The notes below the pieces were generated by a model. That model was not told where the DNA came from, ran no database searches, and saw only the letters and a list, made by a program, of their open reading frames with translations. A program made the translations under genes and the position numbers. From contig JACDEL010000028.1 of NCBI GenBank assembly GCA_013816405.1, forward strand, positions 1 to 34,689: a stretch of 34,689 nucleotides of DNA, given 5' to 3'. Positions 14,740-28,643 of the stretch are shown here, in pieces (the stretch's first letter is position 1; each line of letters opens with the position of its first letter). The stretch comes from Chloroflexota bacterium. GTDB taxonomy: Bacteria > Chloroflexota > Limnocylindria > QHBO01.

Positions 14740-15927
14740 TCAAGCGCGAGCAGGGACGGCGTCGGGGGCGAAGGCCTTGTCGATGGCCCTGGCGAAGGCC
14801 AGCACGCTCTTGCTCAAGGGGGCATCGGCACGGCTGGACATGAACGGCTCGCCCGAGTTGAGGGCGCTGATTGCGCCCCGGTACTCGTTGATGACCTGGT
14901 AATCGATCTTGCGGCCAAGCGCCGACTCCGCGTTGCTGACGTTGATGCCGGTGTACGCATTCGACCGATTCAGCACGAGCTGCACCTTGCCCTGCTCGTA
15001 GCCGAGGCTGACCATCGTCTCGAGCACGAGCGGGACGTTCTTCAGGCACGAGAGGTCAGCGGTCATAACCACGAAGATGACATCTGCCTCGTCGAACAGC
15101 TGGAGGTTGAAGTCGTCGATCGCCTGCGACATGTCCACCAGCGTGTAGTCGTAGAGCCGCCGCGACAGACTCAAGATGTTGCTGATCACGGTCGGCGCCT
15201 GGCGCTGCCGCTCGACGACCAGGTCAGCCGAGGCGGGGGTCGGCGGAGCCAGCAGCAATTCGATCTGAGATCGATGCTTGACCATCATCGTGCGAAAGAG
15301 GTCCAGGTCCAGGTCCGGCTCGCTCACCGCGCTCACGATCGAGGGGGTATCGAGGCCCAGGTCCAGGAAGACGCGCAGGTCGCCGAACTGGAGGTTGGCG
15401 TCGATCAGCGCGGTCCGTCTGTTGAGCTCGCGCGCGAGGCCGATGGCGGTGTTGATGGCGATGGTCGTCGTCCCCACGCCGCCCTTGGCGGGGTAGAAGG
15501 CGCACAGCTTGCCGATGGTGGGTGCCTCGCCCCCCGCCTTGGCGCTGACAGGAGCGCTCTGCGCCATGAGCGCCTTGATGCGCGCCATCAGCTCGAGCGG
15601 GTGGAACGGCTTGACGATGTCGTCGTCGGCGCCGGCGCGGAGGCCCCTGACGCGCTGCCCCACGTCCGCCTCGGAGGTCAGCATGATGATCGGGATGTGG
15701 CCGACACCCTTCTCGGCGGCCCGGATCTGCTGCGTGGCTGCGTAGCCGTCGAGCTTGGGCATCGCCATGTCCATGAGGATCAGGTCCGGCCTGGCTTCGA
15801 GGGCCATCTGCACGCCGGCGGCGCCGTCGGACGCGACCGTGACCTCGTACCCCTCCTGCTTGAGGGCAAAGACCAGGACGCGCTGGATATTCAGGTCGTC
15901 GTCGACGACCAGGACTTTCGTGGCCAT
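14740..15927 (-). CDS. cpaE: Receiver-domain/CpaE-type ATPase fusion
   Basis: A 395-residue protein. Residues 4-118 form a response-regulator receiver with an intact acidic pocket (D9-D11), phosphoacceptor D53 (LILMDMAMPKLDG), T84 and K106 (VKPF). Residues 138-390 form a ParA/MinD-family ATPase of the CpaE/TadZ type with the deviant Walker A PAKGGVGTTT (K148-T154) and VDMSQ as the Walker B region. TadZ/CpaE proteins place Tad pilus machinery at a site in the cell. ATG 15927 follows GGGGAG by 4 bases; a more distal in-frame ATG lies inside the hydrolase gene. The tadE and tadG genes from 22369 onward are probable functional partners. An unbroken phosphorylation site is notable, because CpaE receivers are often degenerate. 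Confidence 0.9.
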   Translation of the reverse strand: MATKVLVVDDDLNIQRVLVFALKQEGYEVTVASDGAAGVQMALEARPDLILMDMAMPKLDGYAATQQIRAAEKGVGHIPIIMLTSEADVGQRVRGLRAGADDDIVKPFHPLELMARIKALMAQSAPVSAKAGGEAPTIGKLCAFYPAKGGVGTTTIAINTAIGLARELNRRTALIDANLQFGDLRVFLDLGLDTPSIVSAVSEPDLDLDLFRTMMVKHRSQIELLLAPPTPASADLVVERQRQAPTVISNILSLSRRLYDYTLVDMSQAIDDFNLQLFDEADVIFVVMTADLSCLKNVPLVLETMVSLGYEQGKVQLVLNRSNAYTGINVSNAESALGRKIDYQVINEYRGAISALNSGEPFMSSRADAPLSKSVLAFARAIDKAFAPDAVPARA

Positions 15928-15960
15928 GCAGCTCCCCGTGGAGGATTGAAGATCCGGCCG

Positions 15961-15966
15961 ATTATA
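15961..15966 (-). promoter_or_regulatory. Candidate -10 box for the receiver-CpaE gene
   Basis: A perfect TATAAT on the minus strand, 33 bases before the ATG at 15927. It contains the TAA stop codon of the upstream hydrolase. No good -35 is seen at 16-18 bases, so it may be a weak or activator-dependent promoter. Confidence 0.4.
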
Positions 15967-16888
15967 CGGGCGCTTCCCCATCAAGGTGGCGGGCCAGGAA
16001 GTCCAGGACCCGGCGCTCGTAGGCCTCGGGATTGGTCAGATGGGCCTCGCCGTGGGCGGCTCCCTCGACCACGAACAGCTCCTTCGGCTCGCCCGCAGCT
16101 CGGAACATGCGCTGCGATTGCTGCGGGCTCACCAGCCGATCCTCCCCCGGCGAGATGAGCAGCAGTCCGCGCGGCGCGATCTGCGCCACCCGGTTCATCG
16201 GCGAGCGAAGCCAGACCCCGGCTCGAAGGCTCGCGGCGGCGAGCACCAGCCCCGTGCCCAGCCGAGCCAGCGGATAACCGATCTCGCGCATGCGGTTCGC
16301 GATCGGGTCACGCAGGTCCGCGTAGGCCGCATCGGCCACCACGGCCGCCACCGGCAGGTCGGGCGCAGCCATGATCGCCACCGACCCGCCCATGCTGATC
16401 CCCATCAGCGCGATCGGCCCCAGCCCGCGACCGGCAAGGAAGTGCACCGCCGCGGCCACGTCTCGCTGCTCGAGCGTGCCGAGCGAGATGAGCGCATCGT
16501 CGCTTCCGCCGTGGCCGCGGAAGTCGAACTGGAGGACGTGGTAGCGCCGCTGCAGCCACGGCACGAAGCCGGCCAGCCACGGCAGGCGATGCCAGGAGAA
16601 GCCGTGCAGCAGGACCACCGCGGCGCGAGTCTCGCGAGCGGCGGGGACGAGCCAGCCCGACAGCGTCACGCCGTCATCGGTCGTGAAGCGGACGTCCTCG
16701 TACTCCAGGCCGATATCCGCGGGCGTCGCGGGATCGCCCTCCTCCGGCACGAAGGGGCGGCGGCCGGGGCTGACGATGCGGCGCGATCCCTCGACCGTCA
16801 GGTAGCCCAGGTAGCCAAACGTCACCGCTGCCACGATGCGGGCCAGCCAGCCGATCAGCCCGCGCCGCCGGCGCGGAGGGGTAGCCAT
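15962..16888 (-). CDS. Membrane-anchored alpha/beta hydrolase
   Basis: A 308-residue serine hydrolase of the alpha/beta fold. One N-terminal membrane segment (about residues 9-28, LIGWLARIVAAVTFGYLGYL) anchors it. The core has VVLLHGFSWH (oxyanion region), nucleophile elbow GISMGG, an acid candidate in SPGEDRLVSP and a histidine in GAAHGEAH. The pattern resembles BEM46/YqkD-like esterases with an alanine/leucine-rich lid before WLRSPMNR. The ATG at 16888 is 17 bases after the slipin stop, so the two are probably co-transcribed. The substrate is unknown. Confidence 0.85.
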   Translation of the reverse strand: MATPPRRRRGLIGWLARIVAAVTFGYLGYLTVEGSRRIVSPGRRPFVPEEGDPATPADIGLEYEDVRFTTDDGVTLSGWLVPAARETRAAVVLLHGFSWHRLPWLAGFVPWLQRRYHVLQFDFRGHGGSDDALISLGTLEQRDVAAAVHFLAGRGLGPIALMGISMGGSVAIMAAPDLPVAAVVADAAYADLRDPIANRMREIGYPLARLGTGLVLAAASLRAGVWLRSPMNRVAQIAPRGLLLISPGEDRLVSPQQSQRMFRAAGEPKELFVVEGAAHGEAHLTNPEAYERRVLDFLARHLDGEAPV

Positions 16889-22237: not shown

Positions 22238-22253
22238 GGTGTGTGCGTCCGGT

Positions 22254-22368
22254 CACCGCAGATTCGCGCTGCAAGGTCTCCTGCAAGGCGTCACCTTTAT
22301 GTTGCATGCCGAAGAAGGTCCCGTCCTCGCCCAGTACGACGGTACCGGGCATCACCAGGGGAGCAACC
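22254..22368 (+). promoter_or_regulatory. Conserved leader of tad operon 1
   Basis: Two blocks are shared with the leader of operon 2. Block 1 (22254-22288) matches 25592-25626 in 29 of 35 bases and holds a direct repeat TGCAAGG-TCTCC-TGCAAGG. Block 2 (22333-22364) matches 25673-25704 in 27 of 32 bases and includes AGTACGACGGTAC and the purine-rich ribosome site. Block 2 begins 36 bases before the start codon in both. CCGTC (22321-22325, with one base before) can pair with GACGG (22338-22342). This is probably a shared promoter plus structured 5' leader. Confidence 0.6.
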
Positions 22369-22974
22369 GTGCCGGTCAGGTCCAAGGGGGTTCACAAGCA
22401 TTCGCCTCGGCCGAGCCGGCGGGCAGCACGCACGCCGCGCGGGCAGGCGCTGGTCGAGTTCGCGCTCATCCTCCCGATCCTGCTCCTGCTGGTCGGCGGC
22501 ATCATCCAGTACGGCGTGATCTTCGCGACGAAGCACTCCCTGATCCAGGTTGGTCGCGATGCCGGGCGATGGGCGGCAACCCAGGAGTTCAACCCCTGCT
22601 CAAGCGCAGCGCTGGCCGCCCCAGCGCAGCCCCTCACCGAGGCCGATGCCATCGCGCAGCAATCGCGGCTGATGGGGTACTCGGCCGGCGACTGGAACGC
22701 CGGCACGTTCACCACCTACGCGGATAACGCAGCACTGCCCGCGACGCCGCCGAGCACCGAGGGGGTCGAGGTCGTGTGGTCCTACGGCAACGGCCAACCG
22801 TGCCCGACCATCAACAGCACCACGGCGGCGTATGTGACGATTCGCCTGAGCCACCGAGCGCCGGTCCTGCTGCCGGGGATCCAATTCCTGCCCGCCTTGG
22901 GAACGTGCGACCCAAGCGGCTGTTACCTGGCCATCAGCACCACAGCACGGTTCCGCATGGAGGCCCGTCCGTGA
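22369..22974 (+). CDS. tadE: TadE-like pseudopilin/surface protein
   Basis: A 201-residue TadE-family protein. After about 28 basic residues the hallmark GQALVEFALILPILLLLVGG begins, a TadE-type membrane helix, followed by IFATKHSLIQVGRDAGRW. The exported part has four cysteines and ends with LPGIQFLPALGTC, then ISTTARFRMEARP. TadE-type proteins are minor pseudopilins or envelope parts of Tad (tight adherence) pili. The GTG at 22369 follows AGGGGAG and is preferred to upstream in-frame starts because it sits at the same place as the TTG of operon 2. The stop overlaps the next start as TGATG. It is clearly paralogous to the next gene. Confidence 0.85.
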   Translation: MPVRSKGVHKHSPRPSRRAARTPRGQALVEFALILPILLLLVGGIIQYGVIFATKHSLIQVGRDAGRWAATQEFNPCSSAALAAPAQPLTEADAIAQQSRLMGYSAGDWNAGTFTTYADNAALPATPPSTEGVEVVWSYGNGQPCPTINSTTAAYVTIRLSHRAPVLLPGIQFLPALGTCDPSGCYLAISTTARFRMEARP

Positions 22975-23501
22975 TGGGCAGGCAATCCAGACGGTCGCAC
23001 CACGGCCAGGCGATGGTCGAATTCGGCCTGGTCATCGGCCTGTTCATGTTTGTCGTTGGTGGGCTGATCCAGTTCGGGGTCATTCTGTGGAGCCAGAACT
23101 CGATCACTCAGGTTGCCCGCGACGCCGCTCGGTGGGAGGTGACCCAATCGACCAGCCCGTGTGACTCGCCGGCGGCGAGGGCCGCCCTCGCTGCCGCGGC
23201 TGATCAGCTCGCGCGGGGCACGTCGCTGGTCAACTACTCGGCCGGCACCTGGTCGTCCGCCGTAACGATCGCCTCGCTTGGCGCCGAGGGAATCGGCGCC
23301 GACTGGCAGTCGGCTGACAGCAGCTTTCCGTCTGACTGCCCACCATCCGATAACACGACTGAATGGACTGTTCGCATTCGTGTGAACCACGTCGTCCCCA
23401 TCTTCCTGCCCGGGCTCGAGTTCATCGCCCCGGCCTGCGCATCCAGCGGCTTCTGCCTTACAACCACCACTGAGCTCAGAATGGAGCCGAAACGACCATG
23501 A
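22974..23501 (+). CDS. tadE: TadE-like protein, tandem paralogue
   Basis: A 175-residue TadE-family protein, a tandem duplicate of its upstream neighbour. It shares the QAMVEFGLVIGLFMFVVGGLIQFGVILW helix region (shown in both as GGxIQ(Y/F)GVI), the NSITQVARDAARWEVTQ segment, the NYSAGTW motif (GYSAGDW in the neighbour) and the end FLPGLEFIAPAC ... TTTELRMEPKRP. The exported part has several cysteines likely to form disulfides. The ATG at 22974 overlaps the previous stop by one base (TGATG); a GTG one codon earlier is possible. The stop overlaps the tadG start as ATGA. Confidence 0.83.
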   Translation: MGRQSRRSHHGQAMVEFGLVIGLFMFVVGGLIQFGVILWSQNSITQVARDAARWEVTQSTSPCDSPAARAALAAAADQLARGTSLVNYSAGTWSSAVTIASLGAEGIGADWQSADSSFPSDCPPSDNTTEWTVRIRVNHVVPIFLPGLEFIAPACASSGFCLTTTTELRMEPKRP

Positions 23502-25144
23502 CCCACCAGCCAGCGGCACGAAACCAGAGCGAGCGGGGACAGATCCTCGTTCTGGCTGCGCTGCTCATGGTCATCCTGATCGGCATCACCGGTCTGGCGA
23601 TCGATGTCAGCGCCGCCTACATGGCGGACCGCTTCCAGCGCGCGGTGGCAGACGCCGCAGCCCTGGCCGGCGGCCAGGACCTCCAGATCCCCGGGTCGAA
23701 GGCCCTCCCGGGGGCGACGCAGTACCAGAGCGCACGCACGCACGCCATGGACATCCTGGTCAGTGAGCTCCGCGCGACGTCCACGCCCAGCGTCAGCGCG
23801 GGATCGCCATGCCTCACGCCCGCCGGCTGCACCCTTCCGGGCACGCCCTATGAGGTAGCCCTCCGGACCGGCCCGTCGCCGAGCTGCGTCGATTGCGATC
23901 CATTCCGCGCCATCCAAGTCACGATCCGGCAGCCGGCGTTCGGGTTGACCTTCGCGCGCATCTTCGGCCAGCAGAGCTGGACCGTGAGCACCACCTCGGT
24001 GGCGGGCATCGTCCAGAGCCGTCAGTACGGCCTGGTCACCCTTCGTCCGCCGCGTCCGCGCGCCAATGGCAGCGACGCAAACGAGGTTGATATCCATGTC
24101 ACCGGTGGGTCGAGGGTCCAGGTCGACAACGCCGACATCGGCACAAACAGCAATCTCGTCATCGACGGCTCGAATTCCGCAGTCCTGCTGCAGAACCCTG
24201 CGGCACCGGGGCCTTATACCTACTTCGTTTGGCACTACGACACCTACCAGGCCTGGAGCGGCCAGCCGCCAGGATCGCAGCTGACCTCACCGATCGAGGA
24301 TCCGGACTACCCAATCCCGCAGCGGAGCGCGGTGCCCTCGACGCCGGTCTACACGGCGACAAGCCTCTCAGATGCCATGCTCGGCGGGGCGCCCGGGAGC
24401 ACTGCTTGCCAGACTGAGATGACCAAGGTGCCCCCCGAGTACAAGGTTGGCGGGACCTCCATCAAGAATATGATCCCGTCACGGGTGACCTGCTACAAGC
24501 CGGGGATCTACACCCGAGAATTGAACAACAGCAAGAACAATGAAGCCGTGCTCCTTACTCCAGGGGTCTACTTCCTCGACAAGGGCCTCGATGTCAGCGC
24601 AGTCCTGGTTGGCGGTTACGTCGGCAATTCGGCGGGAGTCGCGATCGTCCTTCCCACGTGCCCGGGAATCAACTGTCCCGCATTCACCGGCAACAACTCC
24701 CCTTCGGTCGCACTCAACTTCGGTAATGCGTACCAGAACTCCAGCGGACAGCGGGCAACCGCTGCCGCATGGAATGGCGGCTTCGTCGTGACCGGCGGTG
24801 TCCCGTCGACGCTCATGTCGATCATGGTCGAACCGGATCAGGGCTGCCTGGCGCCGCCGTTCCCCACGCTGGAGCCCTCCAACTCGTGCAGCAATCGACA
24901 GCCGCAGCTGAAGCTCCCCGGCGGTGGAGCGCTCGCGCTCGCCGGAATTCAGTACGCGCCCACCGACAACACTCAGGTGACGGGGAACAGCCCACAAACA
25001 GGAGTCCTGGGTCAGATCATCTCCTGGACGATCGTATTCTCAGGATCGTCAACCTTGAGCCTGGAGGCCGTGGTCGGTAATACGTCCGGCATCCTGCGTC
25101 TCGACCCTGCCTGCTCGCCCACCGTCAATATCTGCAACCCATAA
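23498..25144 (+). CDS. tadG: TadG-like membrane-anchored surface protein
   Basis: A 548-residue protein of the TadG/putative Flp-pilus assembly type. The N-terminus has RGQILVLAALLMVILIG, LAIDVSAAYMADRFQRAVADAAALAG, the TadG-like helix and following conserved block. The long exported region contains PFRAIQVTIRQPAFGLTFARIFG, which is common in TadG proteins, then a beta-rich, repeat-like C-terminal region (residues about 190-548) with ELNNSKNNEAVLLTPGVYFLDKG and ISWTIVFSGSSTLSLEA. It lacks the von Willebrand A domain of some TadG proteins. TadG is thought to act in the envelope with TadE. It is translationally coupled to tadE (ATGA). Confidence 0.82.
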   Translation: MTHQPAARNQSERGQILVLAALLMVILIGITGLAIDVSAAYMADRFQRAVADAAALAGGQDLQIPGSKALPGATQYQSARTHAMDILVSELRATSTPSVSAGSPCLTPAGCTLPGTPYEVALRTGPSPSCVDCDPFRAIQVTIRQPAFGLTFARIFGQQSWTVSTTSVAGIVQSRQYGLVTLRPPRPRANGSDANEVDIHVTGGSRVQVDNADIGTNSNLVIDGSNSAVLLQNPAAPGPYTYFVWHYDTYQAWSGQPPGSQLTSPIEDPDYPIPQRSAVPSTPVYTATSLSDAMLGGAPGSTACQTEMTKVPPEYKVGGTSIKNMIPSRVTCYKPGIYTRELNNSKNNEAVLLTPGVYFLDKGLDVSAVLVGGYVGNSAGVAIVLPTCPGINCPAFTGNNSPSVALNFGNAYQNSSGQRATAAAWNGGFVVTGGVPSTLMSIMVEPDQGCLAPPFPTLEPSNSCSNRQPQLKLPGGGALALAGIQYAPTDNTQVTGNSPQTGVLGQIISWTIVFSGSSTLSLEAVVGNTSGILRLDPACSPTVNICNP

Positions 25145-25207
25145 GACCACCCTTGTTGGGACCTTCGTCCCGTTGCCGCACGAGCCAACGCCCCACAGCA
25201 TGGGTGC

Positions 25208-25441
25208 ATGCAGACGAAGTTCTGGGTTCGCCGGGTCGTCCTCGCGCTCGTGTGGGGCCTCGCCATCGTGACGTGGGCATCCATCGCCCACTATCTCGCC
25301 GGGATGCCGAACGTCGGCGCGGTCCTGGCGCTCGCAACGATGACGTTCATCGTGGTGCGGCCTGCCCGGCGTGGATCTGTGGCGCGATCGCGGTCGAACG
25401 CATCCGACGCTGCGATGCACGCGGGCGCCCCGACCGCCTGA
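25208..25441 (+). CDS. Small two-helix membrane protein
   Basis: A 77-residue protein with two likely membrane helices (VVLALVWGLAIVTWASIAHYL at 10-30 and VGAVLALATMTFIVV at 36-50) and basic ends. It lies between the two tad operons in the same direction. There is no strong ribosome site, but codon composition and hydrophobic pattern are gene-like and no competing frame is better. The family is not recognised. Confidence 0.45.
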   Translation: MQTKFWVRRVVLALVWGLAIVTWASIAHYLAGMPNVGAVLALATMTFIVVRPARRGSVARSRSNASDAAMHAGAPTA

Positions 25442-25591
25442 GCTCGGCGAGCTCCGCTCTCGACCTCGTGCCGGCCGCCGCCGTCGGCTGCTAGCTGATC
25501 GGCTGGTCCTTCGCGCATTGCGCATCGACGCTGCGGCACCCTCCGGCTTGAGCCCCCTCTCAACGCAAATCCTCAATGAGGTGCGCTCAAG

Positions 25592-25708
25592 CACCACAGA
25601 TTCCGCCTGTAAGGTTTCCTGCAAGGAAGCCCGGCTATCTTTCGGCGACTTAGAAAGTACTAGTCGTCGAGTAGTACGACGGTACTAGGTTTCACCAGGA
25701 GAGCCGCA
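25592..25708 (+). promoter_or_regulatory. Conserved leader of tad operon 2
   Basis: Contains the same two blocks as the leader at 22254-22368: 25592-25626 and 25673-25704, separated by 46 bases here and 44 there. In RNA, AGTAC and CGTCG (25656-25669) can pair with CGACG and GTACT (25677-25686). The hairpin is placed as in operon 1, with different bases in the stem. The ribosome site AGGAGAG and TTG start follow. The preceding 150 bases (25442-25591) hold no recognisable gene. Confidence 0.58.
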
Positions 25709-26353
25709 TTGTTCAAGGCGTTCAGGGGGGCCGTTCAACCGGGCCTGCGTTTGTCGCGCGGCCAAGCGCTGGTCGAGTTCGGCCTTGTCCTGCCACTCCT
25801 GATGGTGCTTCTGCTAGGCATTGCAGACTTCGGCCGCATCTTCCAGGCGGGTATCGCCGAAGAGGCAGCCGTCCGTAATGCGGCGGAGGCAGCGGCCCTG
25901 CAATACAACCAATACCTGCAGTGCGGCCTTGGAAATCCAGACCCAACCTGTGGCGGCTTGCCGGATCCGACGCGGTACGACTCACTCCACGCCGAGGCTC
26001 TGCGGGTAGCGTGCCGCGAGGCGGAGCGAATGCCGGGCCGCACCGTCGATGGCGCTGCCAACTGCACGATGCCGATTATCGCGGTTTGCGTTCACGACAC
26101 CGCCGGCGGCGACGGTAATCGTTGCGGTCAAGAGGCCACATCGGCGCCCGCCGACTGCGACAGGATGATTGGCGGCTGGAATCCAGCGCGAAGCAGTCCG
26201 ACGGTTGTCGATGGAACGGACCCGTATGGCGGCAGACCGTATGTCGAAGTCCGCATGTGCTATCGGTTTGATCCGCTCTTCTCCTTTGCGATGGGCAGCT
26301 GGGGAACCATCTGGCTGCAAAAGGAGAACAACTTCGTGGTGACGAACTATTGA
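25709..26353 (+). CDS. tadE: TadE-like protein, second operon
   Basis: A 214-residue TadE-family protein. Basic N-terminus, then RGQALVEFGLVLPLLMVLLLGIADFGRIF, followed by EEAAVRNAAEAAALQYNQ. The exported part is cysteine-rich (about nine cysteines). The TTG at 25709 follows AGGAGAG by 5 bases and takes the same position relative to the conserved leader as the GTG of operon 1. The stop overlaps the next start (TGATG). It is not closely similar to operon 1 proteins outside the membrane region. Confidence 0.84.
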   Translation: MFKAFRGAVQPGLRLSRGQALVEFGLVLPLLMVLLLGIADFGRIFQAGIAEEAAVRNAAEAAALQYNQYLQCGLGNPDPTCGGLPDPTRYDSLHAEALRVACREAERMPGRTVDGAANCTMPIIAVCVHDTAGGDGNRCGQEATSAPADCDRMIGGWNPARSSPTVVDGTDPYGGRPYVEVRMCYRFDPLFSFAMGSWGTIWLQKENNFVVTNY

Positions 26354-27033
26354 TGATGCAACTCATCAAGCGACGCTCGAATGCCTCGCCCCGAGGTCAG
26401 GCGCTTGTTGAATTCGCCCTGATCTTGCCGCTCTTCGTCATGGTGCTCGTGGGCGTGATCGTCCTCGGCATCATCGTCTTCTACAACCAGCAGCTAACGA
26501 ACGCCGCCCGGGAGACGGCTCGTTACGCTGCGATCCACAGCGCAACCGACCCGTTTTGCCCTGTTGTCGGCCACCTTGACCCCGCAGCTCCTCCGATCGG
26601 CTACGCCCGATGCGATCCCGTCGATACGTCGTGGCCGAACATGACAGCTTACGGACGCACGAACGTGTTTGGGATTAATCCGTCAGGCGTGATCTTCTCT
26701 GCCTGTTGGTCCGGATATCAGTCCGGCGGGACGCCGGATGCCCGGCCTCCGGGAACCTACGTGGATGTCGGCGTCTACATAAGCGCTTGGACCCCCTGCA
26801 GTATCGGTGGCGTCGACCCCACCCTAGATCCTGGTTCGATCGGGTGCGCACCTGGCCTCACGACGGTGGATACGGCCAGCAACTTGTCCGAGGGCCCTGG
26901 CCGAATTGTTGCTAACCGGGTCACCGCGTTCGCCTGCTACCAGTGGAGTCCGCCAATGGCAGGCTTTCTGCTCATCCCCCAGACCGTTACGTTCCGGGCC
27001 GTTATCAGCGAGCCCATCCAGCGCCAGCAATGA
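26353..27033 (+). CDS. tadE: TadE-like protein, second gene of operon 2
   Basis: A 226-residue TadE-family protein with RGQALVEFALILPLFVMVLVGVIVLG and the following QQLTNAARETARYAAIHSA, a textbook TadE N-terminus. The exported domain has about eight cysteines and closes with IVANRVTAFACYQWSPPMAGFLLIP. ATG 26353 overlaps the previous stop; TTG 26350 and ATG 26356 are alternatives. The stop overlaps the tadG start as ATGA, so the three genes are coupled, exactly as in operon 1. Confidence 0.84.
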   Translation: MMQLIKRRSNASPRGQALVEFALILPLFVMVLVGVIVLGIIVFYNQQLTNAARETARYAAIHSATDPFCPVVGHLDPAAPPIGYARCDPVDTSWPNMTAYGRTNVFGINPSGVIFSACWSGYQSGGTPDARPPGTYVDVGVYISAWTPCSIGGVDPTLDPGSIGCAPGLTTVDTASNLSEGPGRIVANRVTAFACYQWSPPMAGFLLIPQTVTFRAVISEPIQRQQ

Positions 27034-28643
27034 AGAGGTTGTCGACGATGCCCAAGACGCGCCAGTCCCGGGGCCAGGTTCTCATCATCACGGCGTTCGC
27101 AATGATCGTATTGCTTGCAATCGCCGCCATCGTCGTTGACCTGGGTTTTTCTTGGATGCTCCACCGGAAGGAACAGAACGCGGTCGATCCAGGGTCGCTG
27201 GCAGCGGCGAAATGGATCAACCCGACCGTAAACCAGGGGAAGATGCAGGCCGAAGCATGCTTCTACGCCCAGGAGAACGGCTTCTTCGCGGGGGACGCCA
27301 ACTGCGCCGCTGCCCTGGCTACCGGCGACCTGGACGTGAACTCGCCGCCCTCGAGTGCTCTCTCCGGTCAGTGGCGCGGTTTCAAGGGTTACGTGGAGGT
27401 GATTATCCATTCCACGCACCCGAGCTTCTTCGGGCAGATCTTCGGCCAAGCTGTGGCCGGGGTCACGACCGCAGCAGTCGCTGCGAACACGCCCGGCAAT
27501 GCCAACTCAGCCAGCCTCACAGCCCTCGGACATGACTGCACCAATAGCAACAATGACAACGGAGTCAGCACGGTAAGTGGTGGCGCGAACGTCCACATCT
27601 TCCCGGCCCGCGCTGGCATTACATCTGGCGGATATGTCCAGGTGAACGCTTCCTGTGGCAATACGGACGATGTCTGTGCCAACGGCAGTGGCACGAATGC
27701 CCTCAAGATCAGCGGTCAGCTGGTTGCAGATACCCCACTGCCCGCCCCATTCGTGAACACGGTGGGCGGCTGCTCGTACCAAGGGACTGGATTGCCACAG
27801 CCGCGATGTCAGACTACAAGTCCGACATGTTTGGACGAGGGGGCTATTCCGGTCGGGGATCCCCTGTCCCTTCTGCCCGAGCCTTGGCCATTCCTGAACC
27901 TCACTGCGCCGCTCTGCCCGCGCATCAGTGGCCCCGTCAACGTGAACGACCCGACCGACACGAATCCATGCACACTGAAGGGTGGAAACAGCGGTACCTG
28001 CCCATTGGTCGGTACTGTCTACACGTGCACCATGAAGCCTGGCGTTTATTACGCCGGTTGGGATGTTCAATCGAACGTGAAGGTGGTGCTGAAGCCAGGC
28101 ATGTACGTGTTCGCCGGATTCGGCATCAAGCTATCGAATGGCAGCTCAATGGAGACCGTCAGCGACGTCGCCGCGGACGGCGTGACGCCGATCGAGGCCC
28201 GCATCACGATCTTCTCAACTGATTACACAGCCGGCTGCCTCGCCAACAAGCCGAACTTCTGCGAGGGCGCTATCAACATCACTGCCCAGGGAGCGCTCAA
28301 CCTGAAGGCCACCGATGAGACGAGCTGTCTCCAGGTATCACCGACCATTTGCACCTGGCGGGGCATCCTCATCTGGCAAGACGGGACGGTCGTCAACACC
28401 CCTCAGGATGTCACGATCACCGGCACATCGGATCTCATCCTGGCTGGGACCATTTACGCGCCGCAGGCTCACGTCAAGATCTCGGGAGCGAATGGATCGA
28501 CGGGCTGTAGCGGGTCACCGGGGTTCTGCCTAGCCATCCAGATCATTTCCAAGAGTTGGGACATCAGCGGCAACGCCACGGTCGGCATGCCATACGACCC
28601 GGACGAGCTCTTCCAACTCGTACAACGGGGTCTCGTCCACTAG
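27030..28643 (+). CDS. tadG: TadG-like membrane-anchored surface protein, second operon
   Basis: A 537-residue TadG-like protein. RGQVLIITAFAMIVLLAIAAIVVDLGF forms the membrane helix, and the following block has the variant NAVDPGSLAAAKW in place of the usual 'DAAALAGA' consensus. PSFFGQIFGQAVAGVTTAAVA is the TadG family segment. The C-terminal half is beta-rich with repeated phrases (MKPGVYYAGWDVQSN, LKPGMYVFAG, DLILAGTIYAPQAHVKISG), suggesting a beta-helix or polymer-forming surface domain. ATG 27030 overlaps the tadE stop; ATG 27048 is an alternative. A bidirectional terminator follows. Confidence 0.82.
   Translation: MKRLSTMPKTRQSRGQVLIITAFAMIVLLAIAAIVVDLGFSWMLHRKEQNAVDPGSLAAAKWINPTVNQGKMQAEACFYAQENGFFAGDANCAAALATGDLDVNSPPSSALSGQWRGFKGYVEVIIHSTHPSFFGQIFGQAVAGVTTAAVAANTPGNANSASLTALGHDCTNSNNDNGVSTVSGGANVHIFPARAGITSGGYVQVNASCGNTDDVCANGSGTNALKISGQLVADTPLPAPFVNTVGGCSYQGTGLPQPRCQTTSPTCLDEGAIPVGDPLSLLPEPWPFLNLTAPLCPRISGPVNVNDPTDTNPCTLKGGNSGTCPLVGTVYTCTMKPGVYYAGWDVQSNVKVVLKPGMYVFAGFGIKLSNGSSMETVSDVAADGVTPIEARITIFSTDYTAGCLANKPNFCEGAINITAQGALNLKATDETSCLQVSPTICTWRGILIWQDGTVVNTPQDVTITGTSDLILAGTIYAPQAHVKISGANGSTGCSGSPGFCLAIQIISKSWDISGNATVGMPYDPDELFQLVQRGLVH

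Follow-up and report, generated by a model that had tools for sequence, protein, structure and literature searches.

Tandem direct repeats upstream of tadE operons in Chloroflexota as a putative operator of a tad-linked OmpR/PhoB-type response regulator

A contig of 34,689 nucleotides (nt) from an uncultured Chloroflexota assembly (GCA_013816405.1, contig JACDEL010000028.1, positions 1 to 34,689; the whole of it is called the window here) contains two neighbouring operons of TadE-like genes, tad1 and tad2, each preceded by a tandem direct repeat of the form TGCAAGG-N5-TGCAAGG. The repeat has a period of 12 nt and ends 9-10 nt 5' of a putative TANNNT -10 box. On comparison of genomes, this arrangement recurs before tadE genes within the class (Limnocylindria), is absent from the Chloroflexota searched outside it, and co-occurs with an OmpR/PhoB-type response regulator encoded beside the core tad genes. 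We consider it probable, at roughly three chances in four, that the repeats are a DNA control switch to which this tad-linked regulator would bind, activating the tadE operons in trans. All -10 boxes and transcription starts given below are predictions, made by comparing sequences that come mostly from incomplete assemblies; G, C, L and f numbers are our handles for genomes, contigs, loci and families.

An earlier note on this DNA had described duplicated leaders before the two operons, with two shared blocks at nearly equal spacing, and this was borne out. A 46-nt block (22243-22288 and 25581-25626, 76% identity) and a 42-nt block (22323-22364 and 25663-25704, 79% identity) are common to both leaders, their copies being offset by 3338 and 3340 nt, respectively. 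When the genome was searched with copy 1, copy 2 was the sole other match below the cut of 0.001 (E = 2.5e-6). The distance of 36 bases reported between the second block and the start codon also agrees with our data, as the dyad of this block begins 36 nt 5' of the start codon in both copies, and so does the low likeness of the downstream TadE genes: the first TadE proteins of tad1 and tad2 are 42% identical over about 63 residues (E = 1e-6). Lack of covariation together with lack of a third copy near tad genes of relatives had been named as a ground for giving the claim up; a third and a fourth copy of the element were found in a genome of the same genus, each 5' of tadE.

The core of the first block is the tandem repeat itself. 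In tad1, the operator TGCAAGG-N5-TGCAAGG occupies positions 22270..22288 of the plus strand (score 28.6 with a matrix of 46 sites) and is followed by the predicted -10 box TATGTT (22298..22303, +), with transcription inferred to start at about 22310. In tad2, the variant TGTAAGG-N5-TGCAAGG (25608..25626, +; score 28.7 with the same matrix) is followed by TATCTT (25636..25641, +) and a start at about 25648. No consensus sigma-70 promoter was reported at either of these two window sites. Since the repeat stands at a fixed distance from the -10 box, the first block lies upstream of the predicted transcription start, and if the -10 assignment is right, it would be promoter DNA and not an RNA leader.

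The matrix was derived from 46 tadE-linked sites, for which the aligned consensus is GCAAGGT-N5-GCAAGG with both 7-mers conserved. Forty-five of them are the TadE-linked matches among those listed for a sequence-only model, which was trained on 13 tadE-linked sites and run on 177 genomes of the class; the remaining one (G002:C7, E 0.17) was added for its adjacent TadE. The gap between repeat and -10 box amounts to 9 nt in 32 of the 46 sites and to 10 nt in nine. A strict TANNNT occurs 8-10 nt past the repeat in 27/46 sites, whereas control offsets average 0.7%.

Next to tadE, the element is found repeatedly. A loose pattern of the core of the first block gave 26 matches in the 177 class genomes, 11 of them with a TadE-like start within about 270 nt downstream. 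A strict pattern, comprising two repeats and the -10 box, gave 11 matches in the same genomes and a single one for the reversed control. Eight of these 11 precede tadE, and the remaining ones stand before an ECF sigma factor gene (two G063 contigs) and a gene for a secreted protein. With a slightly different strict pattern, 13 matches were obtained in 400 Chloroflexota genomes, all among the 55 genomes of this class; none fell in the 345 genomes outside the class, where all three matches of the reversed control were located. Eight of the 13 are linked to tadE and three are not, G045:C5 and C134 standing outside this tally. As for the model, 45 of its 89 listed matches (E <= 0.049) are followed on the same strand, within 450 nt, by a TadE open reading frame (ORF), TadE being recognised by a profile built from 95 motif matches in fetched loci. 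Among these listed matches, linkage was 13/13 at E<1e-6 (mostly training sites) and 10/23 at E 0.02-0.05. For one of 90 matches (the 89 listed and G002:C7), a divergent TadE lies upstream at 450 nt or less. When 376 kb of DNA surrounding tad loci and other sites was scanned with the matrix, 29 sites were obtained, mostly 5' of tadE genes, with the next genes assigned only roughly by simple ORF calling. In the tadE leader of one relative, the site lies at contig positions 557-598, 5' of the stretch from base 640. In families f2, f4 and f19, which are without the regulator, none of 30 tadE operon starts carried the operator.

The candidate regulator is encoded directly beside such sites. In all seven core tad loci examined (L205, L206, L209, L211, L212, L215 and L219), the order is regulator, histidine kinase, sometimes a small gene (which we take to be DUF192-like), site and tadE; the kinase was identified by Pfam in two of these loci and by similarity clustering in the others. 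All seven regulators possess Response_reg and Trans_reg_C domains, and the nearest solved proteins are MtrA, RegX3, RpaA and PhoP. The recognition-helix region reads YVWVT.RRLR.K in all 30 orthologous loci, a few of which show conservative substitutions. Orthologues, defined by a best E < 1e-66, are present in 97 of the 177 class genomes, all of families f1 and f3 (as fragments in G001, G010 and G073), and in none of the 48 genomes of families f2, f4 and f5. Of the 34 genomes with tadE-linked sites, 33 contain an orthologue (Fisher p = 3e-9), and the association persists within f1 and f3 alone (p = 3e-4), kinship being ignored in both tests. The nearest relatives outside the class, sought in 301 genomes of the phylum, reach at most 268 bits and have a different helix (EEGLRVHISRLRSK in f19). 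No convincing operator was found near the closest of them (five f19 loci and one f6 locus), one candidate scoring 8.3 as against at least 15 for accepted sites. In the genome of the window, the regulator is located on contig C36 (6262-6978) beside the core tad genes, off the window, on which it would thus act in trans. This genome holds 19 matches to the regulator, the next best with 36% identity. A second regulator copy occurs in several f3 genomes; in G091, such a homologue (G091:C38:65976-66668, minus strand, L266; E 1.2e-90) stands 180 nt 5' of a site that is linked to tadE and has a degenerate first repeat.

Several observations weigh against this interpretation. The loose pattern was not enriched genome-wide (26 matches, about 38 for the reversed control), and at that step it is therefore position, not number, that carries the signal. 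In family f1, there are 25 distinct tadE operon starts, of which only 12 score as sites and some are clearly without one; the site-bearing 12 score clearly apart from most of the others. Among the 97 orthologue-bearing genomes, 64 have no tadE-linked site among the matches listed. Sensitivity, broken contigs and tadE genes that are not first in their operons account for part of these missing sites. One site-bearing genome, G013 (59% complete), is without an orthologue. Furthermore, direct repeats of the PHO box, which are bound head to tail by an OmpR-family regulator working with a sigma factor, have a unit of 11 nt (PMC4415409), and the period here is 12 nt. Finally, conservation of the -10 box among model matches is partly circular, because the training sites had -10 boxes, two of them (G135 and G023) coming from a pattern that already demanded TANNNT. 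A fairer figure is thus provided by the 11 tadE-linked sites found via the repeat alone, nine of which have TANNNT at 9-10 nt.

According to the model that we favour, the tandem repeat would replace the -35 element. The phosphorylated regulator would occupy the repeats (about -40 to -22) in a head-to-tail arrangement and contact the housekeeping sigma factor in the fashion of PhoB, so that tadE operons would be switched on in trans. The first repeat lies 28 nt from the -10 box, a value equal to that of the PHO box, in which the repeats end about 10 nt before the -10 box. A CRP-family protein might supply a second input at a dyad further upstream. The pair of blocks would then represent the promoter region and the start of the leader, the dyad of the second block adjoining the ribosome-binding site.

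The upstream dyad, GGTG-N8-CACC with at most one mismatch, accompanies 23 of the 46 tadE-linked sites, compared with 0-6 for other spacers (N4-N13) and with 0.8 on average (at most 5) in shuffles of the upstream 36 nt; it had been spotted by eye before testing. Both window promoters have it, 12 nt 5' of the first repeat in each: TGTGCGTCCGGTCACC in tad1 (22242..22257), with one mismatch, and GGTGCGCTCAAGCACC in tad2 (25580..25595), with none. Of the 23 dyads, 11 are separated from the repeat by 2-3 nt and 12 by 11-15 nt, i.e. the two positions are about one helical turn apart. Spacing and consensus (GTG-N8-CAC) are those of CRP-type sites. Proteins with a CRP-type helix-turn-helix were present in all 10 genomes searched, and likewise in all 14 control genomes. 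We may tentatively extend the model to a composite switch with three inputs, namely the OmpR-type regulator, a CRP-family protein at either of two helically phased positions and, in one family, a leader dyad close to the ribosome-binding site. Such a switch would control a surface-attachment regulon of scattered tadE operons and of leaderless small and secreted proteins in uncultured Chloroflexota, but this extended version is rather doubtful.

Some operators precede genes other than tadE, and five of these targets look leaderless. Three of them (G000:C84:43493-43527, L213; G002:C4:408621-408653, L214; G003:C183:33938-33976, L128; all on the minus strand) have the -10 box TATACC and stand before the gene of a conserved, roughly 70-residue protein, the ATG or GTG of which coincides with the predicted transcription start, so its mRNA is likely leaderless. 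The two others (G133:C3:14011-14058, L265; G045:C192:14565-14606, L216; both minus) lie 5' of related secreted proteins, with mRNAs likewise predicted to be leaderless. At G063:C40:1526-1579 (minus, L092), the 12-nt repeat occurs three times in tandem and, with a perfect GGTGAC-N4-GTCACC dyad, precedes a gene for an ECF-type sigma factor. Repeats in reverse orientation were observed upstream of cpaB-like genes (G074:C250, G075:C120, G134:C447, G141:C202, G137:C18, G070:C263, G076:C89 and G072:C8). Several of these are situated just downstream of an apparent flp pilin gene, and a conserved stretch with TAGAGTGGTG follows.

It is also possible, if unlikely, that the repeats are bound by another regulator, for example an XRE-type protein encoded near core tad loci or an ECF sigma factor. 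The site precedes an ECF sigma gene on both G063 contigs and an XRE gene in G014; a homologue of the latter is a conserved neighbour of the core tad loci in G000, G004 and G009. However, it is the kinase-regulator pair that stands directly 5' of the site in 7/7 core loci, and repeats ending 9-10 nt before the -10 box fit activators of OmpR/PhoB type and no ECF promoter. In ECF promoters, the upstream element is separated from the -10 box by 15-19 nt. Neither repeat lies at this distance, and an ECF sigma promoter was therefore rejected on spacing. The XRE-type gene by the core tad cluster was located in three genera, at L206:14152-14631 (-), L209:4971-5486 (+) and L215:13947-14477 (-).

Less likely still is the explanation given in the earlier note, a conserved RNA structure; in this reading, a leader acting as a riboswitch or bound by a protein would control both operons through hairpins by the ribosome-binding site. 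It draws on the second block, the core of which is, by leader comparison, a dyad: AGTACGACGGTACC in tad1 (22333..22346) and AGTACGACGGTACT in tad2 (25673..25686). The ribosome-binding sites, predicted from sequence, are AGGGGAG (22357..22363, +) before the GTG at 22369 and AGGAGAG (25697..25703, +) before the TTG at 25709. Transcription starting downstream of the blocks had been named as a refutation; by the predicted starts this is the case for the first block, whereas the second lies within the predicted leader. The dyad GTAC-N4-GTAC was found in seven of 46 tadE leaders, belonging to this genus and two more f1 genera, with a mean of 0.07 and a maximum of 1 in shuffles. A stricter form (RGTAC-N4-GTAC followed by C, T or G) was sought in 410 kb of fetched sequence, consisting mostly of tad neighbourhoods, and its six matches all lay in tadE leaders. 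Within the genus, the dyad begins 35-37 nt 5' of the start codon.

The hairpins proposed for the two leaders can be drawn on both copies, but the longer, ten-pair one was rejected: the fourth copy does not support its inner helix, and in four sequences, with pairs in 75% of cells, covariation was no greater than in shuffles. The arms of the short hairpin are invariant, and as far as covariation is concerned it might equally be an RNA hairpin or a DNA site. Nothing relevant was detected in Rfam at gathering or relaxed thresholds, and folding energies of four leaders were ordinary, with z between -1.7 and +0.9 relative to mononucleotide shuffles. The TadE motif follows the -10 box at distances of 57 to 305 nt. 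At G002:C7, the sole in-frame start codon lies 12 nt past the first base of the -10 box, and this tadE mRNA would thus be leaderless, as is predicted for the non-tadE targets listed above. Together with the position of the first block upstream of the predicted start, these results, the invariant short hairpin aside, argue against an RNA leader.

Both operons have the same gene order, i.e. TadE, a second TadE and a Tad/TadG-like protein, all on the plus strand. In tad1, the genes are tadE (22369..22974, Pfam TadE, E=3.1e-13), the second tadE-like gene (22974..23501, Pfam TadE, E=3.3e-12) and the Tad/TadG-like gene (23498..25144, Pfam Tad, E=7.7e-8); in tad2, they are located at 25709..26353 (Pfam TadE, E=2.2e-11), 26350..27033 (Pfam TadE, E=2e-15) and 26943..28643 (Pfam Tad, E=3.5e-6). 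About 6 kb from these operons, a CpaE-like gene with a response-receiver domain and an AAA_31 ATPase domain (14740-15984, minus) stands separate from the core tad cluster of contig C36. A recent, functionless duplication of the intergenic region would account for adjacent operons with similar upstream blocks, but it is hardly credible, as distant copies already contradict it: the element precedes tadE in many genera of two families, in surrounding DNA that has diverged, and families without the regulator do not have it 5' of tadE.

If the repeats are indeed bound by the tad-linked regulator, a definite operator and a named candidate for its regulator become available for the Tad pilus genes of a class that is represented here solely by genome assemblies, and the operator would allow the regulon to be listed computationally. 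The period of 12 nt, combined with a nearly invariant recognition helix, would also make a test case for DNA reading by OmpR-family proteins.

Among solved proteins, the closest relative of the regulator is MtrA of Mycobacterium tuberculosis (2gwr), which has the same domain architecture (E = 1e-43, residues 3-230). Nothing in the present analysis links MtrA to the control of pili, and its site differs from TGCAAGG. Among open-licence PMC papers, none was found that deals with this operator or with the control of tad genes in this class, and the bare motif retrieved only unrelated, mostly eukaryotic work. The PHO box (PMC4415409) is similar in that it also consists of two direct repeats of a conserved 7-mer. 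It differs in the 7-mer itself (CTGTCAT or GTTCACC, versus TGCAAGG here), in the CRP-like dyad that is found upstream here, and in the target, which is phosphate in that case and pili in ours. In Pectobacterium, a kinase and a regulator with an OmpR domain (ECA0785-ECA0786) flank flp/tad, and a regulator mutant shows lowered flp/tad transcription, so that an OmpR-type two-component system stands beside tad genes there as well; however, this is a proteobacterium for which the available part of the report (PMC3767616) gives no operator, whereas we propose a class-wide operator that also serves tadE operons off the core cluster. The PprA-PprB two-component system of Pseudomonas aeruginosa, located in the tad locus, alters tad expression, but PprB belongs to the NarL/LuxR family (PMC3510237), and the regulator here is of OmpR/PhoB type. 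As tad-linked two-component systems of Pectobacterium and Pseudomonas are already known, the kind of system is known as well; what appears to be new is the operator with its grammar, and the fact that it is paired with this regulator.

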